Virus record (IMG/VR): IMGVR_UViG_3300017719_002653
Span: 1-30,757 of that record
From: a virus
DNA length: 30,757 nucleotides
Strand: one strand, 5' to 3'
The position numbers and the translations under genes were made by a program. Below, one piece after another: positions 1,069 to 27,646 of this stretch (position 1 is the stretch's first letter; every line of letters starts with the position of its first letter). A model generated the notes under the pieces. That model did not search any database. It was not told the origin of the DNA and was given only the letters and a program-made list of their open reading frames with translations.

Positions 1069-2649
1069 ATGAATCAGAGTTATTCGCCAAAGGACTTAGA
1101 GTTCGGCACAGAGGGGAGAGACAAGCTCATCTCCGGCATCACAAAAATTTCTAAAGCAGTAAAGAGTACGTTAGGACCTATGGGTAACACTGTGCTCATA
1201 GAATCACCGGACCACACACACGGGATTACGGTAACGAAAGACGGAGTAACAGTAGCGAAGTCTATCAGTCTAATGGACCCTATCGAGAACCTTGCGGTTC
1301 GTATGATGAAGGAAGCGGCAGATAGGACAGCTACCTCAGCGGGTGACGGGACAACGACAGCGATAGTGTTAACAGAGGCACTTGTAAAAGCGGGTACTAA
1401 GCGTATGAAAGATTCTAACAGGACGGAAGTTTTGCGTATGCTTGTAGAGAAAACGAAAGAGATAGTAGAGAACCTAAAGAAAGTATCAAAGAAGGTGGAC
1501 ACGAAAACACTTAGGGACGTTGCGGTTATATCAGCGAACAACGACAAGCTCATCGGGGATACCATAGCCGACGTATACGAAAAAGTTGGCAAGGACGGTA
1601 TCGTTACAGTTGAGCGTTCACAGACATCAGAAACATATTATGAGACTACCAATGGTATAAAGATAGACAGGGGATATTTGACCGACCTGTTTGTCAATGA
1701 CCAAAAGAAAGATGAGAGTGTCCTTGACGACACTTACATATTGGTATCAGATGCAGAGGTCAGCAACATCCTACAGATAGAGAAGGTATTGAAACCAATC
1801 ATACAGGAAGGCAAGAAGTTATTGATTATTGCACCTGTCGCGGGGCAGGTAGTAAACACATTAGCAGCCAACGTTATGAAGAACAACCTAAAGGTTTGTG
1901 CTATACCACCACCCAACTTTGGGTACAAGCAGCACGAGCTTATGCAGGACATTGCACTTAGTGTTGGAGCGACATACTTCTCCGAGAAGACAGGGGATGA
2001 CTTGAGTCTAATTGAATTTAGCGATTTGGGTCACGCTTCCAAGGTGATAGTTGGGAGGGACTCGACGGTCATCCTCAAGGATGATAACGAAGAGAATGAT
2101 GAGACCATCAAGAAGCGTGTTGAGGAATTAACTCACGCACACAGTCTCGCCAAGAAGAAAGCTGACAGGGAGTTTATCCTTTCGCGTATAGCCTCACTAA
2201 CGGGTGGCATAGGTGTCATCTATGTTGGTGGTAACACAGACCTTGAGCAGAAGGAGTTGTATGACCGAGTAGACGATGCGGTGTGTGCAGTACGCTCAGC
2301 ATTGGAAGAGGGAATACTTCCGGGTGGAGGGATTGCTTTATATAAACAAGCATTATCTCAAGATGACACTGTTGCGGGAATGATGTTAGCTGATTGTCTT
2401 AGTGAACCTCTTTGGCAAATTTGGACCAACGCAAGTTTAGGTAACAAAATGTTTTACAAAGTTAACGAAGGTAATTCAACCTATGGCTTAAACGTGAAGA
2501 CAGGAGATTGGGGGGATATGTACAAGATGGGTGTCATTGACCCGCTGAAGGTAACCCGTAGTGCACTACAGAATGCGGTCAGTGTTGCGGTAACCATATT
2601 ATCAACGGATGCCATTGTAACTATGGCACGCTCATACGAGAAAGAATGA
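1069..2649 (+). CDS. groEL: Phage-encoded GroEL chaperonin (Hsp60)
   Basis: 526 residues, near the bacterial length of about 548. It should form the ATP-driven folding ring. Nucleotide-site motifs are intact: TLGPMG (34-39), TKDGVTVAK (56-64), GDGTTT (92-97), GGG (419-421) and D491 in the VIDPLKVTR segment. The catalytic aspartate equivalent to E. coli D398 is D403 in RVDDAV. The apical substrate-binding segment RGYLTDLF is preserved. The C-terminus ends ARSYEKE without the Gly-Gly-Met tail of bacterial GroEL. Two genes downstream lies groES; the membrane-protein gene between overlaps the groEL stop by ATGA. It likely folds phage proteins such as the capsid protein (inference), as proposed for other phage chaperonins. 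Confidence 0.97.
   Translation: MNQSYSPKDLEFGTEGRDKLISGITKISKAVKSTLGPMGNTVLIESPDHTHGITVTKDGVTVAKSISLMDPIENLAVRMMKEAADRTATSAGDGTTTAIVLTEALVKAGTKRMKDSNRTEVLRMLVEKTKEIVENLKKVSKKVDTKTLRDVAVISANNDKLIGDTIADVYEKVGKDGIVTVERSQTSETYYETTNGIKIDRGYLTDLFVNDQKKDESVLDDTYILVSDAEVSNILQIEKVLKPIIQEGKKLLIIAPVAGQVVNTLAANVMKNNLKVCAIPPPNFGYKQHELMQDIALSVGATYFSEKTGDDLSLIEFSDLGHASKVIVGRDSTVILKDDNEENDETIKKRVEELTHAHSLAKKKADREFILSRIASLTGGIGVIYVGGNTDLEQKELYDRVDDAVCAVRSALEEGILPGGGIALYKQALSQDDTVAGMMLADCLSEPLWQIWTNASLGNKMFYKVNEGNSTYGLNVKTGDWGDMYKMGVIDPLKVTRSALQNAVSVAVTILSTDAIVTMARSYEKE
1717..1734. promoter_or_regulatory. AGTGTC-N6-GACACT dyad, copy 2 (inside groEL)
   Basis: Arms AGTGTC and GACACT around spacer CTTGAC, within the groEL apical-domain region. 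Here the site is in frame and encodes SVLDDT. Confidence 0.55.
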
Positions 2650-2840
2650 GAGAGAGTGTAATCAAGAGGCTTATTGAGCTGAACCCTAATGACGCTGACT
2701 TAGGGGCAAGCATCCGTGAGCTGTATAAGAAGCGGTTGTATAATCGAAACACAATACTACGCTATGCGTTATGGGGAGGTTTGTTCTACCTTGGCGTAGT
2801 GGGATTGATATTGTTGTTAGTGTTATTAAATAAATATTAG
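2646..2840 (+). CDS. Small single-pass membrane protein
   Basis: 64 residues. The start ATG overlaps the groEL stop as ATGA, so translation is probably coupled. The first 38 residues are charged and probably helical, with several Arg/Lys before the membrane (KKRLYNR). They are followed by one hydrophobic segment of about 22 residues (roughly 40-62, rich in Leu, Val and Gly) and a short NKY tail. The positive residues before the segment favour an N-in orientation. It sits between groEL and groES, where no membrane protein is expected. I do not recognise a family. It might anchor or modify a step linked to chaperonin function, or simply be a hitch-hiking gene. Confidence 0.8.
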   Translation: MRESVIKRLIELNPNDADLGASIRELYKKRLYNRNTILRYALWGGLFYLGVVGLILLLVLLNKY

Positions 2841-2841
2841 T

Positions 2842-3099
2842 ATGAAACCAATAGGAAAACATATAGTAGTGAGCTTGATAGAGGAGGAAGTAAAGACTGA
2901 CTCCGGATTATTATTATCTGCACAGGACGCGAATGCTTTTAGGTATCAGAAGGCTACCGTTGTAAAGCCGGGAACAGATGTATCTATTATCAACGAGGGT
3001 GATGAGATTTACTTTGACAAGCGTCAGTGTTACACAATGATGATTGAGGGTGAGCAGTACACCATCATTCAAGAGCGCGATGTCGTTGTTGTTTTATAA
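2842..3099 (+). CDS. groES: GroES-type co-chaperonin (cpn10)
   Basis: 85 residues against about 95 in bacteria. The N-terminal strand MKPIGKHIVV matches the GroES start. The segment EEEVKTDSGLLLS corresponds to the mobile loop that binds GroEL, ending in a hydrophobic triplet (LLL). Then come VVKPGTDV, the GDEIYFDK strand and the closing QERDVVVVL strand typical of cpn10. It starts one base after the previous stop. The operon order is groEL first and groES last, the reverse of the usual bacterial groES-groEL. The final 35 bases overlap the 3' end of the minus-strand gene at 3065-3502. Confidence 0.92.
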   Translation: MKPIGKHIVVSLIEEEVKTDSGLLLSAQDANAFRYQKATVVKPGTDVSIINEGDEIYFDKRQCYTMMIEGEQYTIIQERDVVVVL

Positions 3100-3502
3100 A
3101 CGCATTCATCTCCTTTATCATATTCCTGTACACCTTATCTGTGTATGACACCTTAGTCTTGAACATAGGATTCTTAGATGGTGAGGTTGGTATCTCCTCA
3201 CCGTTTAACTTTTTGTACACAGAGTTCAACAATCTTTTAGATTTGAATGATAGCTGATACAGGGCTTTTCGTTTACCGTCGTTCTTTCTGAACACCTCTA
3301 TCCAACCATCCCTCCTTAGTTTATCAAAACGATTCACACTCCAACTGAGTAGCTCATCGAACTCATCGAACTTATCCTTAGAGAAGTATCCCTCTGTTTT
3401 TAGGAACAGTAACATCTCAAGCTCTCCTTGAGTAATATTATATTTTGCTTTTACAAAGTACCGGACCACTCTCCAATACTTAAGATAATCGTCAACAGGC
3501 AT
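3065..3502 (-). CDS. Winged-helix-like DNA-binding protein, putative regulator
   Basis: 145 residues from the ATG at 3502. The frame extends further upstream but would cross the divergent promoter and encode a hydrophobic leader, so the MPVDDYLKYW start is preferred. The middle reads like a MarR-type winged helix: helix ITQGELEMLLFL, helix FDELLSWSVNRFDKLRRDGW as the likely recognition helix, then the wing EVFRKNDGKRKALYQLS. A basic C-terminal helical tail follows. It is the only convincing minus-strand gene: convergent with groES (35-bp overlap) and divergent from the lysine-rich cassette, a common layout for a regulator. Fold assignment is by eye. It could instead be a replication or accessory DNA-binding protein. 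Confidence 0.75.
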   Translation of the reverse strand: MPVDDYLKYWRVVRYFVKAKYNITQGELEMLLFLKTEGYFSKDKFDEFDELLSWSVNRFDKLRRDGWIEVFRKNDGKRKALYQLSFKSKRLLNSVYKKLNGEEIPTSPSKNPMFKTKVSYTDKVYRNMIKEMNAFIKQQRHRALE

Positions 3503-3516
3503 AAATTTAATTTTAT

Positions 3517-3524
3517 TAACTTTG
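3517..3524 (+). promoter_or_regulatory. -7 element, TAACTTTG
   Basis: Matches TAnnTTTG and ends 18 nt before the ATG at 3543. It lies in the 40-bp divergent gap between the regulator gene and the basic-protein cassette, so it is a natural place for autoregulation. Confidence 0.65.
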
Positions 3525-3542
3525 TGTAAATATAAAAAAGTT

Positions 3543-3926
3543 ATGGCAATCATTAATAATAAGGGTAAGTATAATCCTAAGTCAAACAGATACAGTAAGG
3601 ACGAGATTACTGTTTCAAAACCGGATGCTAACTGTATGATAACATCAACAGTTAAGGCTACAGGAAAGGTGTTAAGCAAATCTAAGCTAGACCCTGCGGC
3701 TTGTAAGAGAGCTAAGGGAACAGCAACAGAGTCTGAGGTAGATGCTTTTAAAGCAAAGAAGAAGGCAGATAAAATTAGCAGTGAGCCATCTAAGAATTAT
3801 ACCGAGGCTTATGACAAAGCTAGTCCTTCTGATAAAAGAAAATTAAGAATTGCCAAAGGTAATAAGACAGGTATGACACCGGCACAAATAGCAAGAGCTC
3901 TTGGCAGCTCCAATAAAACAAAATAG
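3543..3926 (+). CDS. Lysine-rich protein of unknown function (cassette gene 1)
   Basis: 127 residues from ATG 3543 (MAIINNKGKY), chosen because it sits at the usual distance from the -7 element. A TTG at 3522 falls inside that element and is rejected. The protein is basic and hydrophilic with two cysteines (NCMITS and AACKRAK) and no membrane segment. Residues 8-50 look beta-like (NPKSNRYSKDEITVSKP). The C-terminus ends TPAQIARALGSSNKTK, which resembles a short helical DNA-binding stretch. First gene of a run of small basic proteins. The family is not recognised. DNA binding is a guess from charge and context. Confidence 0.7.
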   Translation: MAIINNKGKYNPKSNRYSKDEITVSKPDANCMITSTVKATGKVLSKSKLDPAACKRAKGTATESEVDAFKAKKKADKISSEPSKNYTEAYDKASPSDKRKLRIAKGNKTGMTPAQIARALGSSNKTK

Positions 3927-3932
3927 TTTTAA

Positions 3933-4166
3933 ATGGCAGTAGCAAAGACAGATAAAGAAAAGAAAGCTGACAAAGACAAGGTTCCGTTTAAGAACAAAGT
4001 CATTGAGCGTCTTGAGCGTCTTGAGGATATGACTAAGGCTACTCGTGAAGAAAGAAAGGCTGAAAGAAAAGCCAAGAGAGAAGCCAATAAGAAAAAACGT
4101 AGAGCAAGAAAGTCACGTGCGGACATCACGGGATTAGCAAAGTTTCAAGGATTTATAACTAAGTAA
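3933..4166 (+). CDS. Highly charged helical basic protein (cassette gene 2)
   Basis: 77 residues, about half of them Lys, Arg, Glu or Asp. The central stretch (roughly 20-62) is one long predicted helix with heptad-like LERLERLEDM followed by REERKAERKAKREANKKKRR, so coiled-coil dimerisation with a basic arm is plausible. The tail ITGLAKFQGFITK is the only hydrophobic part. Its stop overlaps the next start by one base (TAATG). No cysteines, no membrane segment. A nucleic-acid-binding role is inferred from charge only. Confidence 0.75.
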   Translation: MAVAKTDKEKKADKDKVPFKNKVIERLERLEDMTKATREERKAERKAKREANKKKRRARKSRADITGLAKFQGFITK

Positions 4167-4546
4167 TGGCAAAGAAGGATGCCTGTTATAGAAAGATTAT
4201 GCGCCGCTATAAGAAGTGGTCTGCTCGTGCGGCACAGGCTACAGCTAAGTGTCGTAAGAAGAAGGGTATTGTTAGAAAAACAAAAGCAGGCTCTAACTTA
4301 AAGAGATGGGGTAAAGAAAAGTGGATTGATACTCGAACAGGTAAACCCTGTGGTACAGGAAGTAAGAGTGAATACTGCAGACCTTCCAAGAGAGTGTCGT
4401 CAAAGACACCCGTCACCAAATCAGAGATGTCTAAATCAACTTTAAGAAAGAAGCAGGCAGAGAAAAAGAGAATAGGTAAGCAGGGTGCAGGCGGAAAGAA
4501 AGTTAAGGCTGTAAGAAGAAGAAATAGCTATGGCAGAAAAAAGTAA
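4166..4546 (+). CDS. Small basic Cys-containing protein (DUF5872-like)
   Basis: 126 residues, very rich in Lys and Arg. Two segments look familiar. CYRKIMRRYKKWSARAAQA followed by KCRKKKG resembles a short repeat common in marine phage and algal-virus proteins (CYxKxxxxYxxW...S...A...CRK). KEKWIDTRTGKPCG, then YCRPSKRVSSKTPVT, resembles the related KPCG...CRP..R...TP pattern. I think of the family labelled DUF5872, but this is memory, not a search. The four cysteines of the second half could bind a metal. It overlaps the preceding stop by one base and the next gene by 17. A degenerate copy of the 18-bp dyad lies inside (4393-4410). Confidence 0.78.
   Translation: MAKKDACYRKIMRRYKKWSARAAQATAKCRKKKGIVRKTKAGSNLKRWGKEKWIDTRTGKPCGTGSKSEYCRPSKRVSSKTPVTKSEMSKSTLRKKQAEKKRIGKQGAGGKKVKAVRRRNSYGRKK
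4393..4410. promoter_or_regulatory. Near-copy of the AGTGTC-N6-GACACT dyad
   Basis: AGTGTC, spacer GTCAAA, then GACACC: 11 of 12 arm positions match and the spacing is the same. It is coding here, in a third frame relative to the arms (encoding RVSSKTP). Confidence 0.4.
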
Positions 4547-5389: not shown

Positions 5390-5830
5390 ATGGCATATAA
5401 AAGAGATTTAGCAAACCCATTAGCCCCTACCTTTGGTAGTGCGAAACCTAAGAAACCTAAAAAGAAAAAAAAGGTTAAAAATTTAAAAGAGGTAAAGGTT
5501 AATCCTGTCGGTAGGTATACTGACAAAGAACAATCAATGTCTAAGGCTAAGAAACAGGCTAAAAACTTTTCAAAAAATGAAAATACGGGATATGCTGCTA
5601 AGGTTACACCTAAGAAGGTAAAGACAATCACATATAAAGACGGTAAGAAAGTTAAAACTACTGTCGCAAAAGATGGTAAGCTTGTGAGAGAAAGAGGTAA
5701 GGAAGTTCGTCAAGAAAATAAAGAGCTAAGAAAAGCTGACAGAAAAAGAAACCAACAAGGACGAAAAGATGTTCGTCAGATAAAAAAAGAAAGGCGTAAA
5801 GAAGAAAGAAGAACTAAAAGAAAGAACTAA
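5390..5830 (+). CDS. Lysine-rich protein with MAYKRDLANPLAPTF tag
   Basis: 146 residues, roughly a third of them Lys or Arg. After the tag MAYKRDLANPLAPTFG come a Lys/Pro run (KPKKPKKKKK) and a short beta-like piece (KTITYKDGKKVKTTVAKDG). A long charged helix (RERGKEVRQENKELRKADRK) follows, and the end is EERRTKRKN. The tag is repeated almost exactly in the next gene (MAYKRDLANPLASTFG) and so is the EERRTKRKN end, although the middles differ. The stop overlaps the next start by one base. The charge resembles histone-like or capsid-internal proteins; function is unproven. Confidence 0.78.
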   Translation: MAYKRDLANPLAPTFGSAKPKKPKKKKKVKNLKEVKVNPVGRYTDKEQSMSKAKKQAKNFSKNENTGYAAKVTPKKVKTITYKDGKKVKTTVAKDGKLVRERGKEVRQENKELRKADRKRNQQGRKDVRQIKKERRKEERRTKRKN

Positions 5831-5839
5831 TGGCATATA
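5800..5839 (+). repeat. 40-bp direct repeat, copy A
   Basis: Identical to 6024-6063. It spans the end of one gene (encoding EERRTKRKN and the stop) and the start of the next (MAY). Two copies 224 bp apart delimit the 5830-6054 gene, as expected from tandem duplication. Confidence 0.85.
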
Positions 5840-6054
5840 AAAGAGACTTAGCGAACCCTTTAGCGTCCACATTTGGACCCGGAGATAAAGTAGGTGACCA
5901 AAAGAATGCTCCTAACAGTGGTATGATTGGAAAAGGTTTAGCATCAATAGGTATGTTAATCTTTGGTAACAAGATTGGTACTGACAAGATGAGGCAGACA
6001 CGAGCCAATAGATTAAAAAAGAGAGAAGAAAGAAGAACTAAAAGAAAGAACTAA
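5830..6054 (+). CDS. Short paralogue with same tag and tail as the preceding gene
   Basis: 74 residues. The head MAYKRDLANPLASTFG and tail KKREERRTKRKN match the preceding protein, but the middle (residues 17-60) is different: Gly-rich and milder (GMIGKGLASIGMLIFGNKIG), with a short hydrophobic stretch. This head/tail sharing with a swapped middle points to duplication and recombination through the 40-bp repeat at each boundary. It overlaps its neighbours by one base on both sides. Function unknown; the shared ends suggest that they carry the common property, such as localisation or DNA binding. Confidence 0.72.
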   Translation: MAYKRDLANPLASTFGPGDKVGDQKNAPNSGMIGKGLASIGMLIFGNKIGTDKMRQTRANRLKKREERRTKRKN

Positions 6055-8726: not shown

Positions 8727-9386
8727 ATGGCAAAAGTATGTAGATGCTGTCACCAAGAAATCAAGAGTGATTCAAAGTACATTTGGATTCTTGATAATGG
8801 TCACGGTGGAATTATTGATGGTGTCTATCAGACACCCGGAAAGCGTAGCCCTATTTGGTCAGATGGTACTCAGCTCTTTGAGGGTGAGTTCAATCGTGCT
8901 ATTGTAGACAGGATTGCTAAGTATTGCGATAAGAACAATATCGAGTACATAAACTTGGTCAACACCAATGAGGATGTTCCTCTATCTACGAGAGTTAAGA
9001 TGGCTAATGAGGTTTATCGTGAGTCAGACAAGCCCTGTATATATGTGAGCGTACACGCAAATGGGTTCAGTGATGAGTCGGCAAATGGTTGGGAGGTGTA
9101 TACATCTCCGGGAGAAACTCAGTCAGACCATATAGCAACGGTGTTGTATGAGGAGACAGAGAAAGAGTTCCCTAACTACAAGATGCGTAAGGATACAAGG
9201 GATGGTGATGTAGACAAGGAGTCAAACTTCTATGTGCTTATACACACAGCTATGCCTGCTATACTATCTGAGAACTTCTTTATGACAAACGAGAGAGAGT
9301 GCAAGACGCTCCTTCTTAGTGAAGAAGGTAGGGACCGCATCGCAAAGGCTCACATTGAAATGATAAATAAAATCGAGAACGAATGA
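8727..9386 (+). CDS. N-acetylmuramoyl-L-alanine amidase endolysin (Amidase_3)
   Basis: 219 residues. Amidase_3 zinc enzymes cut the amide bond between N-acetylmuramic acid and L-alanine in peptidoglycan. Visible motifs: H26 in DNGHGG, a Glu in FEGEFN (E52 or E54), H110 in VSVHANG and catalytic E182 in ILSENFFMTN. The N-terminal CRCCH (residues 5-9) is unusual and could be a small metal site. No signal peptide is visible, so export through the holin is expected. Its last codons overlap the holin gene as ATGA. A near-copy of the GTGTC dyad with a 5-bp spacer lies at 8820-8836. Confidence 0.92.
   Translation: MAKVCRCCHQEIKSDSKYIWILDNGHGGIIDGVYQTPGKRSPIWSDGTQLFEGEFNRAIVDRIAKYCDKNNIEYINLVNTNEDVPLSTRVKMANEVYRESDKPCIYVSVHANGFSDESANGWEVYTSPGETQSDHIATVLYEETEKEFPNYKMRKDTRDGDVDKESNFYVLIHTAMPAILSENFFMTNERECKTLLLSEEGRDRIAKAHIEMINKIENE
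8820..8836. promoter_or_regulatory. Variant dyad GGTGTC-N5-GACACC
   Basis: Perfect 6-bp arms GGTGTC and GACACC with spacer TATCA, inside the endolysin gene. It differs from the main dyad family by the outer base pair and a spacer one base shorter, so its membership is doubtful. Confidence 0.25.
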
Positions 9387-9778
9387 AAGAAATATTAACA
9401 AGACTATTTGGAAAGGGTTCGGGAATTGTTGAGCAGGTCGGAGGAGTTGTAGACAAGTTTGTTAGAACCAAAGAAGAAAAGGCTCAGTTTGAGAAAGAGA
9501 TGGCAGAGATACTCATCAATGCTGAGGCTGATATGCAGAAGAACGTCACCGAGAGATGGAAGGCAGATATGACTTCAGACTCTTGGCTGTCAAAGAATGT
9601 ACGACCATTGGTATTGATGTTCTTAATTTTTAACACTATGCTGTTGATATTTATTGATGCAGGTCAGCTTGACTTTAAGGTTGAAGATAATTGGGTGAGC
9701 CTACTAGAGATATTACTACTTACGGTTATTGCTGCATATTTTGGCGGTAGAACCATTGAGAAGACAAGAAAGAAATAA
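9383..9778 (+). CDS. 3TM-type holin
   Basis: 131 residues. The N-terminal half is charged and amphipathic (VEQVGGVVDKFVRTKEEKAQFEKEM). Then comes SDSWLSKNVRPLVLMF, the short W...RP signature at the start of the membrane part in GTA_holin_3TM-type proteins. Two clear hydrophobic segments follow (about 74-91 and 105-122) and a basic tail (EKTRKK). Holins of this type permeabilise the inner membrane to release the endolysin. It overlaps the endolysin by four bases. Family named from the motif and layout, without a search. Confidence 0.82.
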   Translation: MKEILTRLFGKGSGIVEQVGGVVDKFVRTKEEKAQFEKEMAEILINAEADMQKNVTERWKADMTSDSWLSKNVRPLVLMFLIFNTMLLIFIDAGQLDFKVEDNWVSLLEILLLTVIAAYFGGRTIEKTRKK

Positions 9779-11188: not shown

Positions 11189-11416
11189 ATGGATATTAGA
11201 AAAGTATCAATAGGAACAGATTTTAAATCAGCAATGCACTACATAGTAGGGCAGGAGGTTTTAGGAGGCAACTATGTGATACACCTAATAAAGTTCAACT
11301 CAACAAATTCTTCTTACAAACTTTACATAGAAGAGTCAGAAGGAGATATGGTTGTGCTTTGGAAGGAGTTTAATTCTAATCTTCCTATAACAGTAGAATA
11401 CAATATAAACTTTTGA
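11189..11416 (+). CDS. Small conserved phage protein of unknown function
   Basis: 75 residues, single compact beta-rich domain: MDIRKVSIGTDFKSAMHYIV, then GGNYVIHLIKFN, a strand ending in KLYIEE, and VVLWKEFNSNLPITVEYNI. I recall similar short proteins (MDIRKVSIG...AMHYIVGQ) in other marine phages, with no known role. The stop codon overlaps the TTG start of the next gene by four bases, so translation is probably coupled. Its place between fibre and terminase genes suggests a virion or assembly role. Confidence 0.72.
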   Translation: MDIRKVSIGTDFKSAMHYIVGQEVLGGNYVIHLIKFNSTNSSYKLYIEESEGDMVVLWKEFNSNLPITVEYNINF

Positions 11417-11976
11417 AATCACCAACTCAATTTATAGTCACACCATTAAAAGGAAAACGATATAACAACACCAAGGATATAGGAGGTGTTGATTTAATTA
11501 TAAGCACATCAGAGGAAGACCATACGTTTTCAAACAGGTATGCAGAAGTATTGGCGACACCCTTAGATTACAATGGAGAGATAAAAAAGGGAGATACACT
11601 ATTGGTTCACCATAATGTTTTTAAGTTCTATAACGATATGAAGGGACGTAGACAGAGTGGGAAGAGTTTTTTAAAAGACGATATGTTTCTTGTAGACCAA
11701 GACCAATTCTATATGTACAAGAATGAAAATGGTTGGAACTCATATGAAAGATACTGCTTTGTAAAGCCTGTCTCTGTAGAAGAGTCTTACATATTTAAAC
11801 CCTTTAGCGAGGAGCCATTGGTAGGAGAAATGAAATACCCTAATAATTACTTGTTAAAAAAAGGAGTTAAGGTAGGAGATAGAATTAGCTTTAAGCCCGA
11901 CAGTGAATATGAGTTTACTGTGGATGGTGAAAAGCTTTACAGGATGTATGACCATCAAATAACAATGCTCGTATGA
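11413..11976 (+). CDS. GroES-like tandem beta-barrel protein (second co-chaperonin candidate)
   Basis: 187 residues from a TTG codon overlapping the previous stop as TTGA; no ATG lies near. Two segments each resemble the closing part of a GroES domain. In the first, EVLATPLDYNGEIKKGDTLL is followed by VHHNVFKFY and a strand DDMFLVDQDQFYMYK. In the second, GVKVGDRISFKPDSEYEF is followed by VDGEKLYRMYDHQITMLV, which closely matches the GroES pattern GDRVxF...xxDGxxYxxxxxxDIxAxV. This would make it a two-barrel relative of cpn10, like the phage co-chaperonin idea of T4 gp31. Fold assignment by eye; other OB- or barrel-type proteins are possible. Confidence 0.65.
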   Translation: MKSPTQFIVTPLKGKRYNNTKDIGGVDLIISTSEEDHTFSNRYAEVLATPLDYNGEIKKGDTLLVHHNVFKFYNDMKGRRQSGKSFLKDDMFLVDQDQFYMYKNENGWNSYERYCFVKPVSVEESYIFKPFSEEPLVGEMKYPNNYLLKKGVKVGDRISFKPDSEYEFTVDGEKLYRMYDHQITMLV

Positions 11977-26833: not shown

Positions 26834-27646
26834 ATGCAAGGACTAACAGGAGATTACACGTTAACATATAGCGAAACATCTAAAGGATTCCCATCTTTTT
26901 ATTCTTACTATCCGGATATGATGATAGGTATGAATAATTATTTGTATTCATTCAAGGGAGGTAATCTGTACAGACATAACACCAATGATGAAAGAAATAC
27001 CTACTATGGTACGTTTACTTCTTCTCAGATAACGAGTGTCTTCAACGACACTCCGTTGGAGAACAAAATATTTAAGACCATACACCTTGAGTCAGACTCA
27101 GCTTGGACAGGAACGTTTATATCAGACCAACAAACGGGAGGAAATATAGATGCGGATTGGTTCGTTAAGAAAGAGGGGAATTGGTTTGCTTTTATTAGAG
27201 ACACAGCATTTACTCCTGCATCTACAGCAGAATATCCATTACGTTCTTTAAATGGTATCAGCTCTTCTCAGACGGTAAATTCTGTAGCTCCCGCAGCGGT
27301 AGAGGTAAACTTTAATATCAACACATCTATAGGAAGCATATTGAGCATTGGAGACACATTGTATTTTATTCCTTCTCCTGTTGCTTCGGGGTCAACACCC
27401 ACTTTATGCGGAGCTGTTACGGAAATAAATATTGACCTTCCTGCAGGACTTAATCAGATTGTGGTCGATACATCAGCAGGTGCTATACCTCCGGGACAGA
27501 CAGACTACTTTTTATTCATAAAGAACCAAGTAGCCGAATCACACGGTGTATTAGGTCACTATTGCGAGTTTACTTTAACCAATGATGACACAACAGCTAC
27601 AGAGTTATTTACTGTAGAGTCTGAGGTAATGAAAAGTTTCCCTTAA
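26834..27646 (+). CDS. Nozzle C-terminal-like protein, separate gene
   Basis: 270 residues, 5 bases after the nozzle stop and in another frame. The start YTLTYSETSKGFPSFYSYYP, then MNNYLYSFKGGNLYRHN and FNDTPLENKIFKT, match the C-terminal part of crAss-like stabilisation proteins as I remember them. The natural partner is therefore the preceding protein. Residues about 155-231 (SILSIGDTLYFIP, CGAVTEINIDL, YFLFIKN) faintly resemble the VGDxV module of other virion proteins. A dyad copy (27035) is in frame and encodes SVFNDT. Ends MKSFP just before a promoter. Tail assembly role inferred. Confidence 0.75.
   Translation: MQGLTGDYTLTYSETSKGFPSFYSYYPDMMIGMNNYLYSFKGGNLYRHNTNDERNTYYGTFTSSQITSVFNDTPLENKIFKTIHLESDSAWTGTFISDQQTGGNIDADWFVKKEGNWFAFIRDTAFTPASTAEYPLRSLNGISSSQTVNSVAPAAVEVNFNINTSIGSILSIGDTLYFIPSPVASGSTPTLCGAVTEINIDLPAGLNQIVVDTSAGAIPPGQTDYFLFIKNQVAESHGVLGHYCEFTLTNDDTTATELFTVESEVMKSFP
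27035..27052. promoter_or_regulatory. AGTGTC-N6-GACACT dyad, copy 5
   Basis: Arms AGTGTC and GACACT around spacer TTCAAC, extended to 7-bp arms by flanking G and C. It is inside the tail gene at 26834-27646. Confidence 0.55.

Follow-up and report, generated by a model that had tools for sequence, protein, structure and literature searches.

The groEL-groES junction of a clade of phages is a variable point within an otherwise rigid gene block. A gene for a 64-residue membrane protein, found at this junction, has moved between lineages, as judged from sequence comparisons. In our estimation this protein is probably exchangeable cargo of the junction that places a small helix-turn-helix module at the inner membrane, and not a subunit of the chaperonin. 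The analysis was centered on a virus record of 30,757 bases (IMG/VR record IMGVR_UViG_3300017719_002653), the whole of which is referred to as the window.

Three genes are arranged head-to-tail on the + strand of the window. The groEL gene (1069 to 2649) encodes a group I chaperonin of 526 residues that lacks the Gly-Gly-Met tail. Its product matched Pfam Cpn60_TCP1 (PF00118; 4e-54, residues 27-519), PHROG 5725 (groEL; 1.5e-132) and 166 PDB sequences, giving the Cpn60 fold over its full length. The start codon of the 64-residue ORF (2646 to 2840) overlaps the groEL stop codon as ATGA (-4 nt), and groES (2842 to 3099, 85 residues; Pfam Cpn10, PF00166, 6.2e-12) starts +1 nt after this ORF. A convergent repressor-like gene on the - strand (3065 to 3679; PHROG 17028, 2.2e-14; PHROG 12817, transcription regulation, 2e-4) shares 35 nt with the 3′ end of groES. 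ORF calls, Pfam and PHROG matches and hydropathy thus agree with the first-pass annotation on the existence, order and coordinates of groEL, the membrane ORF and groES. The phage origin that it assigned to the locus was confirmed by the terminase, portal and structural genes lying downstream in this virus record. A crAss-type Muzzle C-terminal domain (PF25729, 7e-17) is encoded at 26834-27646. The nearest named relative is MW202828, a podovirus genome from Manatee Spring (61% for GroEL, 77% for the terminase), followed by the Flavobacterium elemo phages (46% identity for the terminase).

Comparisons were made across 87 loci: the window, MW202828, the best 80 of 191 GroEL-coding stretches and five loci added after a search with the 64-residue protein, with three duplicate loci dropped. 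Because those five were added for carrying the 64-residue gene, frequencies of this gene are quoted for the 80 only. Spacings of control neighbor pairs were taken from the window, MW202828 and 26 retrieved stretches, 28 regions in all. The repressor-like gene is downstream of groES in all 28.

A complete GroEL-GroES pair is encoded, and the phage chaperonin looks active, judging by its motifs. TKDGVTVA, AGDGTTTA and DRVDDAV, which we take to contain the counterparts of E. coli D52, D87 and D398, start at residues 56, 91 and 399 of the window GroEL. They are kept in 86/86 related GroELs, so that the activity previously proposed for this protein remains the predicted one. The lack of a C-terminal Gly-Gly-Met tail had also been noted. 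This is true of the window, but GGM was found within the last 40 residues of none of the 86 relatives, and tail loss is therefore a trait of the clade and not specific to the window. The window GroES carries its hydrophobic mobile-loop tripeptide within SGLLLS (residues 21-26). The roof-loop stretch is absent from it, with an eight-residue gap relative to Thermus GroES at ENGQRVPL. GroES is 85 residues long in 79 of the 87 loci. A second, larger GroES-like protein of 187 residues (11413 to 11976, +; PHROG 13932, co-chaperonin GroES, 4e-23) is encoded two genes upstream of the terminase, and was found in 26/28 regions. Its structure model (pLDDT 73.8) best matched a tandem co-chaperonin chain, 7ekq_R (Foldseek E 5.8e-5, TM 0.54). 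The protein is thus modeled as what is probably a tandem Cpn10, and the phage probably possesses two lids.

In all 87 clade loci groEL precedes groES, as was found when the order was checked in related phages following a proposal of the first-pass annotation. That annotation had contrasted the order with that of bacteria; the order itself holds, but it is not special to the window. Reversed groEL-groES order is ordinary among phages of Bacteroidota. In elemo phages groES overlaps the groEL before it and nothing is inserted, and in Maribacter phage Panino groEL is followed by a 44-residue ORF (4069-4203 of that locus, L092) and a groES-like ORF of 88 residues. Other arrangements were also found in phages more remote from the clade: groES then groEL in Flavobacterium immuto, a groES-like ORF before groEL in Bacteroides phage SJC03, and groES, an ORF of 90-91 residues and groEL in Cellulophaga phi38:1 and Calle_3. 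In crAss-like cr111_1 the gene annotated as “10 kDa chaperonin” follows groEL at a distance of five genes, and the groEL neighbors in Vibrio K364 and cr108_1 include none annotated as groES. GroEL has already been recorded in Flavobacteriaceae phages, in 36 genomes of group 2 according to PMC5332604, and PMC11590407 reports both GroEL and GroES of Panino.

Eight distinct copies of the 64-residue gene were recovered, all at groEL-groES junctions. Ratios of dN/dS among them range from 0.05 to 0.34 (27/28 pairs, those with finite dS), a substitution pattern that marks the ORF as a real protein under purifying selection. An AlphaFold model of the window copy (mean pLDDT 90.6) has helices at residues 3-12, 16-31 and 34-63. 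The last of these (2745 to 2834, +) is a predicted transmembrane helix and includes the single strongly hydrophobic segment of the protein (18-residue Kyte-Doolittle mean 2.63). Arg and Lys residues before this helix suggest, by the positive-inside rule, that the N-terminus is cytosolic. The first two helices, joined by a turn at P14-N15-D16, form what we call the PND module (2652 to 2738, +; placed by alignment A2 and the structure model), within which lies the motif PNDADLGASIR (2685-2717, +). No family in Pfam, NCBIfam or PHROG was matched by the protein, and a fold search with its model returned nothing below E 2.7. The short length of the ORF and its lack of family matches could be read to mean that it is spurious, or that variable gaps at the junction are assembly errors. 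This explanation is extremely improbable: the selection seen across eight distinct sequences already refutes it, the same arrangement recurs in eight contigs from different samples, and the flanking gene order is constant. The middle gene, as previously described, thus encodes what the model and dN/dS values indicate to be a genuine, selected membrane protein. The earlier annotation would have abandoned its functional proposal had the protein been absent from all other phage groEL operons and failed to interact; seven other contigs carry it, always at this junction.

The distribution of the gene is patchy. Of the 80 loci for which GroEL was the sole criterion, two have it (L004 and L005). The copy nearest to that of the window, in L087, is 88.9% identical in DNA, while the groEL segments next to it are 64-76% identical and groES 73%. 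The converse pattern is found with L004, where the first two groEL segments are 93% and 91% identical to the window, the last 300 nt of groEL 74%, groES 91.5% and the small gene 71.9%. Since the nearest copy sits beside a groEL that is so divergent, the 64-residue gene moves independently. Relatives whose GroEL is 84-88% identical to that of the window carry a different small ORF or an additional one. The former is the case in L003 (GroEL 88% identical), where a 52-residue ORF has the motif and lacks the membrane helix. Mosaicism was also noted within groEL itself, near 2110-2160 and 2335-2470 of the window. Identity to L086 drops from ∼88% to 70% over the last 300 nt, and identity to L003 climbs to 92.7% over the same interval. 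A tiny hydrophobic ORF precedes the 64-residue gene in four of its eight loci (22 residues in L004, L005 and L089; 26 residues in L085).

Distances from the groEL stop to the groES start, the latter taken as the nearest Met, range from -17 to 2095 nt across the 87 loci, and in 20 of these there is no room for an insert (gap ≤11 nt). Inserted ORFs were picked as a simple chain, which misses deep overlaps in L003, L026 and L075; by this procedure 64/87 loci have at least one junction ORF, and the 95 ORFs found were grouped by similarity into 30 clusters. No Pfam match was obtained for the largest of these (24 ORFs). Other cargo includes a zinc-ribbon-like protein, DUF3310 and a class II tRNA-synthetase-like protein, together with HNH-like and MazG-like proteins whose Pfam scores fall below the cut-offs. 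Immediately downstream of groEL, L071 and L074 encode a Tad2-like anti-Thoeris protein (PF11195, 1.4e-23). The gene following it in both contigs encodes a 171-residue protein with no assigned family. A C-terminal tail shared by many inserted ORFs (ETNRK..) was considered as a domain and rejected; from the frames we take it to be the beginning of groES read out of frame.

Within the 28 regions, groEL-groES spacing ranges from -17 to 1481 nt (median 238). The spacing between terminase and portal is -4 in 26/26 regions, and the gene before the terminase (g11973) overlaps it by 20-23 nt in 26/26. For groES and the convergent repressor-like gene, all three quartiles of the spacing are -35, with extremes of -68 and 343. 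Variation occurs elsewhere too, with 305-4884 nt separating the repressor-like gene from the next gene that is conserved, and the slot is therefore not unique in these genomes. A second variable place follows the 187-residue GroES-like gene, where the gap to the next gene exceeds 60 nt in 11/26 regions. Seven of the loci (L099, L102, L104, L105, L109, L112 and L114; gap ∼470-850 nt) carry a related gene there that has an EPxxIHxDxMxGDxT motif and is dioxygenase-like by eye. When four classes of slot content were mapped onto a quick GroEL tree of 86 rows, with L003, L017, L026 and L075 set by hand as module-bearing, at least 21 changes were required for the classes and at least three for presence of the 64-residue gene; note that groEL itself recombines. 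We found no report of a slot between groEL and groES in the literature on viral chaperonins and gene order, although this is weak evidence of novelty, and subscription papers lie largely outside the coverage of the search.

Translational coupling to groEL had been put forward as a property of the membrane ORF. The ATGA overlap bears this out for the window, and the start lies inside the groEL stop codon in 4/8 copies. The next start is, however, ≤12 nt from the groEL stop in 83/87 loci (the ORF picker favors close starts), and coupling thus belongs to the slot and not to the membrane gene. Hydrophobic products occur in 10 of the 30 cargo clusters; in a control set of 57 small annotated genes from elemo and MW202828 there are 11 (p 0.19). 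The idea that the slot is especially rich in membrane proteins was therefore rejected, and the cargo offers no reason for a membrane site in particular, which weighs against the inner-membrane part of our reading.

These data bear on the proposed role of the 64-residue protein as an accessory factor dedicated to the chaperonin, which it would tether to the membrane. Its gene lies between groEL and groES in 8/8 cases, with starts inside the groEL stop codon in four, and some other cargo is also small and hydrophobic (the 10 clusters above). Moreover, strict matches to the PND module within the clade were found only at this junction (13 distinct ORFs; whole clade records carry one in one place each in 6/30), a pattern also consistent with a chaperonin link of some kind. 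Against these points, close relatives manage without the gene, which recombines independently of both chaperonin genes, and hydrophobic cargo is not enriched. The soluble part of the protein occurs in more than 100 phage loci with no groEL nearby. A dedicated tether is therefore unlikely, and it was rejected on the basis of patchy presence, independent recombination and occurrence of the module away from groEL. The related suggestion of a new accessory factor of the ring does not accord with a gene present in 2/80 loci, with 20/87 loci that have no room for an insert, or with close GroEL relatives (84-88%) that carry different or extra small ORFs. A role of the 64-residue protein in serving the chaperonin has little support.

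The PND module is defined by PNDx[DE]LGxxIR with a hydrophobic helix on either side, and the window protein conforms to this definition. Junction ORFs both with and without a membrane helix share this N-terminal motif in alignment. In alignment A2 (57 proteins) P14, N15, D16, L19, G20, I23 and R24 are invariant, but the rows were found by the motif itself, which fixes six of these seven residues by selection. A degenerate DNA pattern for the motif retrieved at least 120 viral stretches from IMG/VR. Among the 120 listed, the module is in frame in all, and the ORF is ≤130 residues in 116. Module ORFs among the listed viral matches have a median length of 61.5 residues, and the module lies a median of 9 residues from the C-terminus. 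Leu and Arg are present in all 120 even though the pattern tolerated Phe for Leu and Ser for Arg. Conservation in the listed matches also extends to positions outside the pattern (I/L at -8, L at -5, V/I/C at -4, Y/T at -1 and Y/F/I at +13). A permuted-codon control, consisting of a single permutation and scanned to completion, yielded 12 stretches, 3 of them in frame. Cellular genomes (84,980 species) gave 33 motif stretches, of which 14 are in frame and four (L279, L298, L303 and L308) are module-like by eye. L298 is a 4,630-base contig binned as Aliivibrio MAG Ust_30 that carries a clade groEL (68%), a module ORF and groES, and is probably phage contamination. A narrower pattern gave 45 stretches, 6 of which are among the 120 listed. 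Provided that the listed matches represent the collection fairly, IMG/VR would contain several hundred module stretches.

When the module was masked, the 123 distinct proteins among the listed matches fell into about 58 partner groups. A KYGTTLxxNN-type partner domain also occurs with no module in Escherichia phage Halfdan, Pseudomonas phage LPPA15, Flavobacterium phage tooticki and MW202640, and two proteins (L157 and L333) have tandem modules. The module is separable, given partner domains with and without it and its tandem copies. A hydropathy cut was passed by 8 of 162 module proteins, of which 7 come from this junction and the eighth is L190. The membrane-anchored form was seen only next to groEL, a point that counts against the cargo reading. 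Searches of 57 module members against Pfam, NCBIfam and PHROGs at 0.01 gave 0/57 matches in each, and PDB sequences gave a single match at E 0.65; the power of these searches is low because the sequences are short. Three module proteins had no tblastn match in 50,697 phage records. A fourth matched 140, via its partner domain in the rows listed, and none of four records inspected among these contained the module. DNA searches for the habitat or host of module phages returned short patches only. The literature on promiscuous short motifs yielded no report of the module, which is likewise weak evidence of novelty, subscription papers again falling largely beyond what was covered. Elsewhere in the window, two neighboring Lys/Arg-rich ORFs (5390-5830 and 5830-6054, +) have near-identical N-termini (MAYKRDLANPLA.TFG) that look like a short N-terminal tag reused.

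We tentatively put forward, as a possibility that we rate well below even, that the PND module is a viral docking tag not recognised before: a helix-turn-helix of 25 residues which phages add to, and remove from, dozens of unrelated small proteins, bringing all of these to a single target in the infected cell. The window would then encode its membrane-anchored form, within a chaperonin operon acting as an exchange slot for genes of phage-host conflict. If the module is such a shared tag, one host or phage target may serve hundreds of small phage proteins.

For the 64-residue protein itself, a rather improbable alternative, though a better one than the tether, is that it acts in superinfection exclusion or lysis timing through its membrane helix, the module being merely a soluble head. 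Small single-helix phage membrane proteins often act in these ways, and the slot holds other genes of phage-host conflict, such as that for the Tad2-like protein. Because the window has a separate holin and amidase, encoded by distinct genes at 8727-9778, exclusion would be likelier than lysis. No result of this analysis points to exclusion, and two features run counter to both roles: the part shared beyond the 64-residue family is the soluble module, and this is under strong purifying selection together with the rest of the protein.

The reading of the 64-residue protein as exchangeable cargo runs as follows. The comparisons show the junction to be a slot that takes up small genes, one or more at a time, head-to-tail and translationally coupled. 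Its contents come, go and are replaced, with no such turnover of groEL, groES and the convergent repressor-like gene around it, and the 64-residue gene is one item of this cargo. The advantage of the slot would be co-expression with an abundant chaperonin. The N-terminal 30 residues of the window protein constitute the helix-turn-helix module of the model, which recurs in many unrelated small proteins, is nearly confined to viruses and is joined here to one membrane helix. The module may face the cytosol and, as a guess, dock a common partner. The protein could then anchor the partner at the inner membrane during infection, or hide it there. Should the slot reading be right, new genes of phage-host conflict can be sought at one constant site, the junction, where two contigs already have the Tad2-like anti-Thoeris protein and many orphan families occur.

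Variable phage loci and morons, such as the P2/P4 hotspots treated in PMC9122126, resemble the slot in their fixed place, conserved flanks and changing small cargo. A further likeness is that the slot cargo includes one known anti-defence family. Like a moron, the 64-residue gene is patchy between conserved genes and spread by exchange, but it does not have its own promoter and terminator, being placed -4 nt from groEL and +1 nt from groES. Autonomous transcription is a defining trait of morons. It is missing here, as there is no promoter space inside the two-gene operon.

Compared with the bacterial groES-groEL operon, the phage locus has the same protein families, ATPase motifs and hydrophobic mobile-loop tripeptide. 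It differs in that groEL comes first, a small gene can lie in between, the GGM tail is absent and GroES is without the roof-loop stretch. The elemo phages and their GroEL-bearing relatives (group 2 of PMC5332604) share the groEL-then-groES order, a similar terminase (46% identity) and a second GroES-like gene before the terminase, whereas elemo groEL and groES overlap, lack an insert and lie on the strand opposite the structural genes. Panino, an isolated phage that does not belong to the clade, likewise has groEL and a groES-like ORF separated by a small ORF, but its 44-residue product is basic, is not a membrane protein and is unrelated to the 64-residue protein of the window. T4 Gp31, according to PMC6318259, is without the roof loops of GroES, a lack considered to aid it in folding the large capsid protein. 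The GroES of this clade is likewise gapped at the roof loop. Gp31 partners host GroEL and has a longer mobile loop, whereas this phage encodes its own GroEL and its loop is not longer. The two kinds of co-chaperonin described here, one without the roof-loop stretch and one tandem-looking, bear on the folding of phage capsid proteins.
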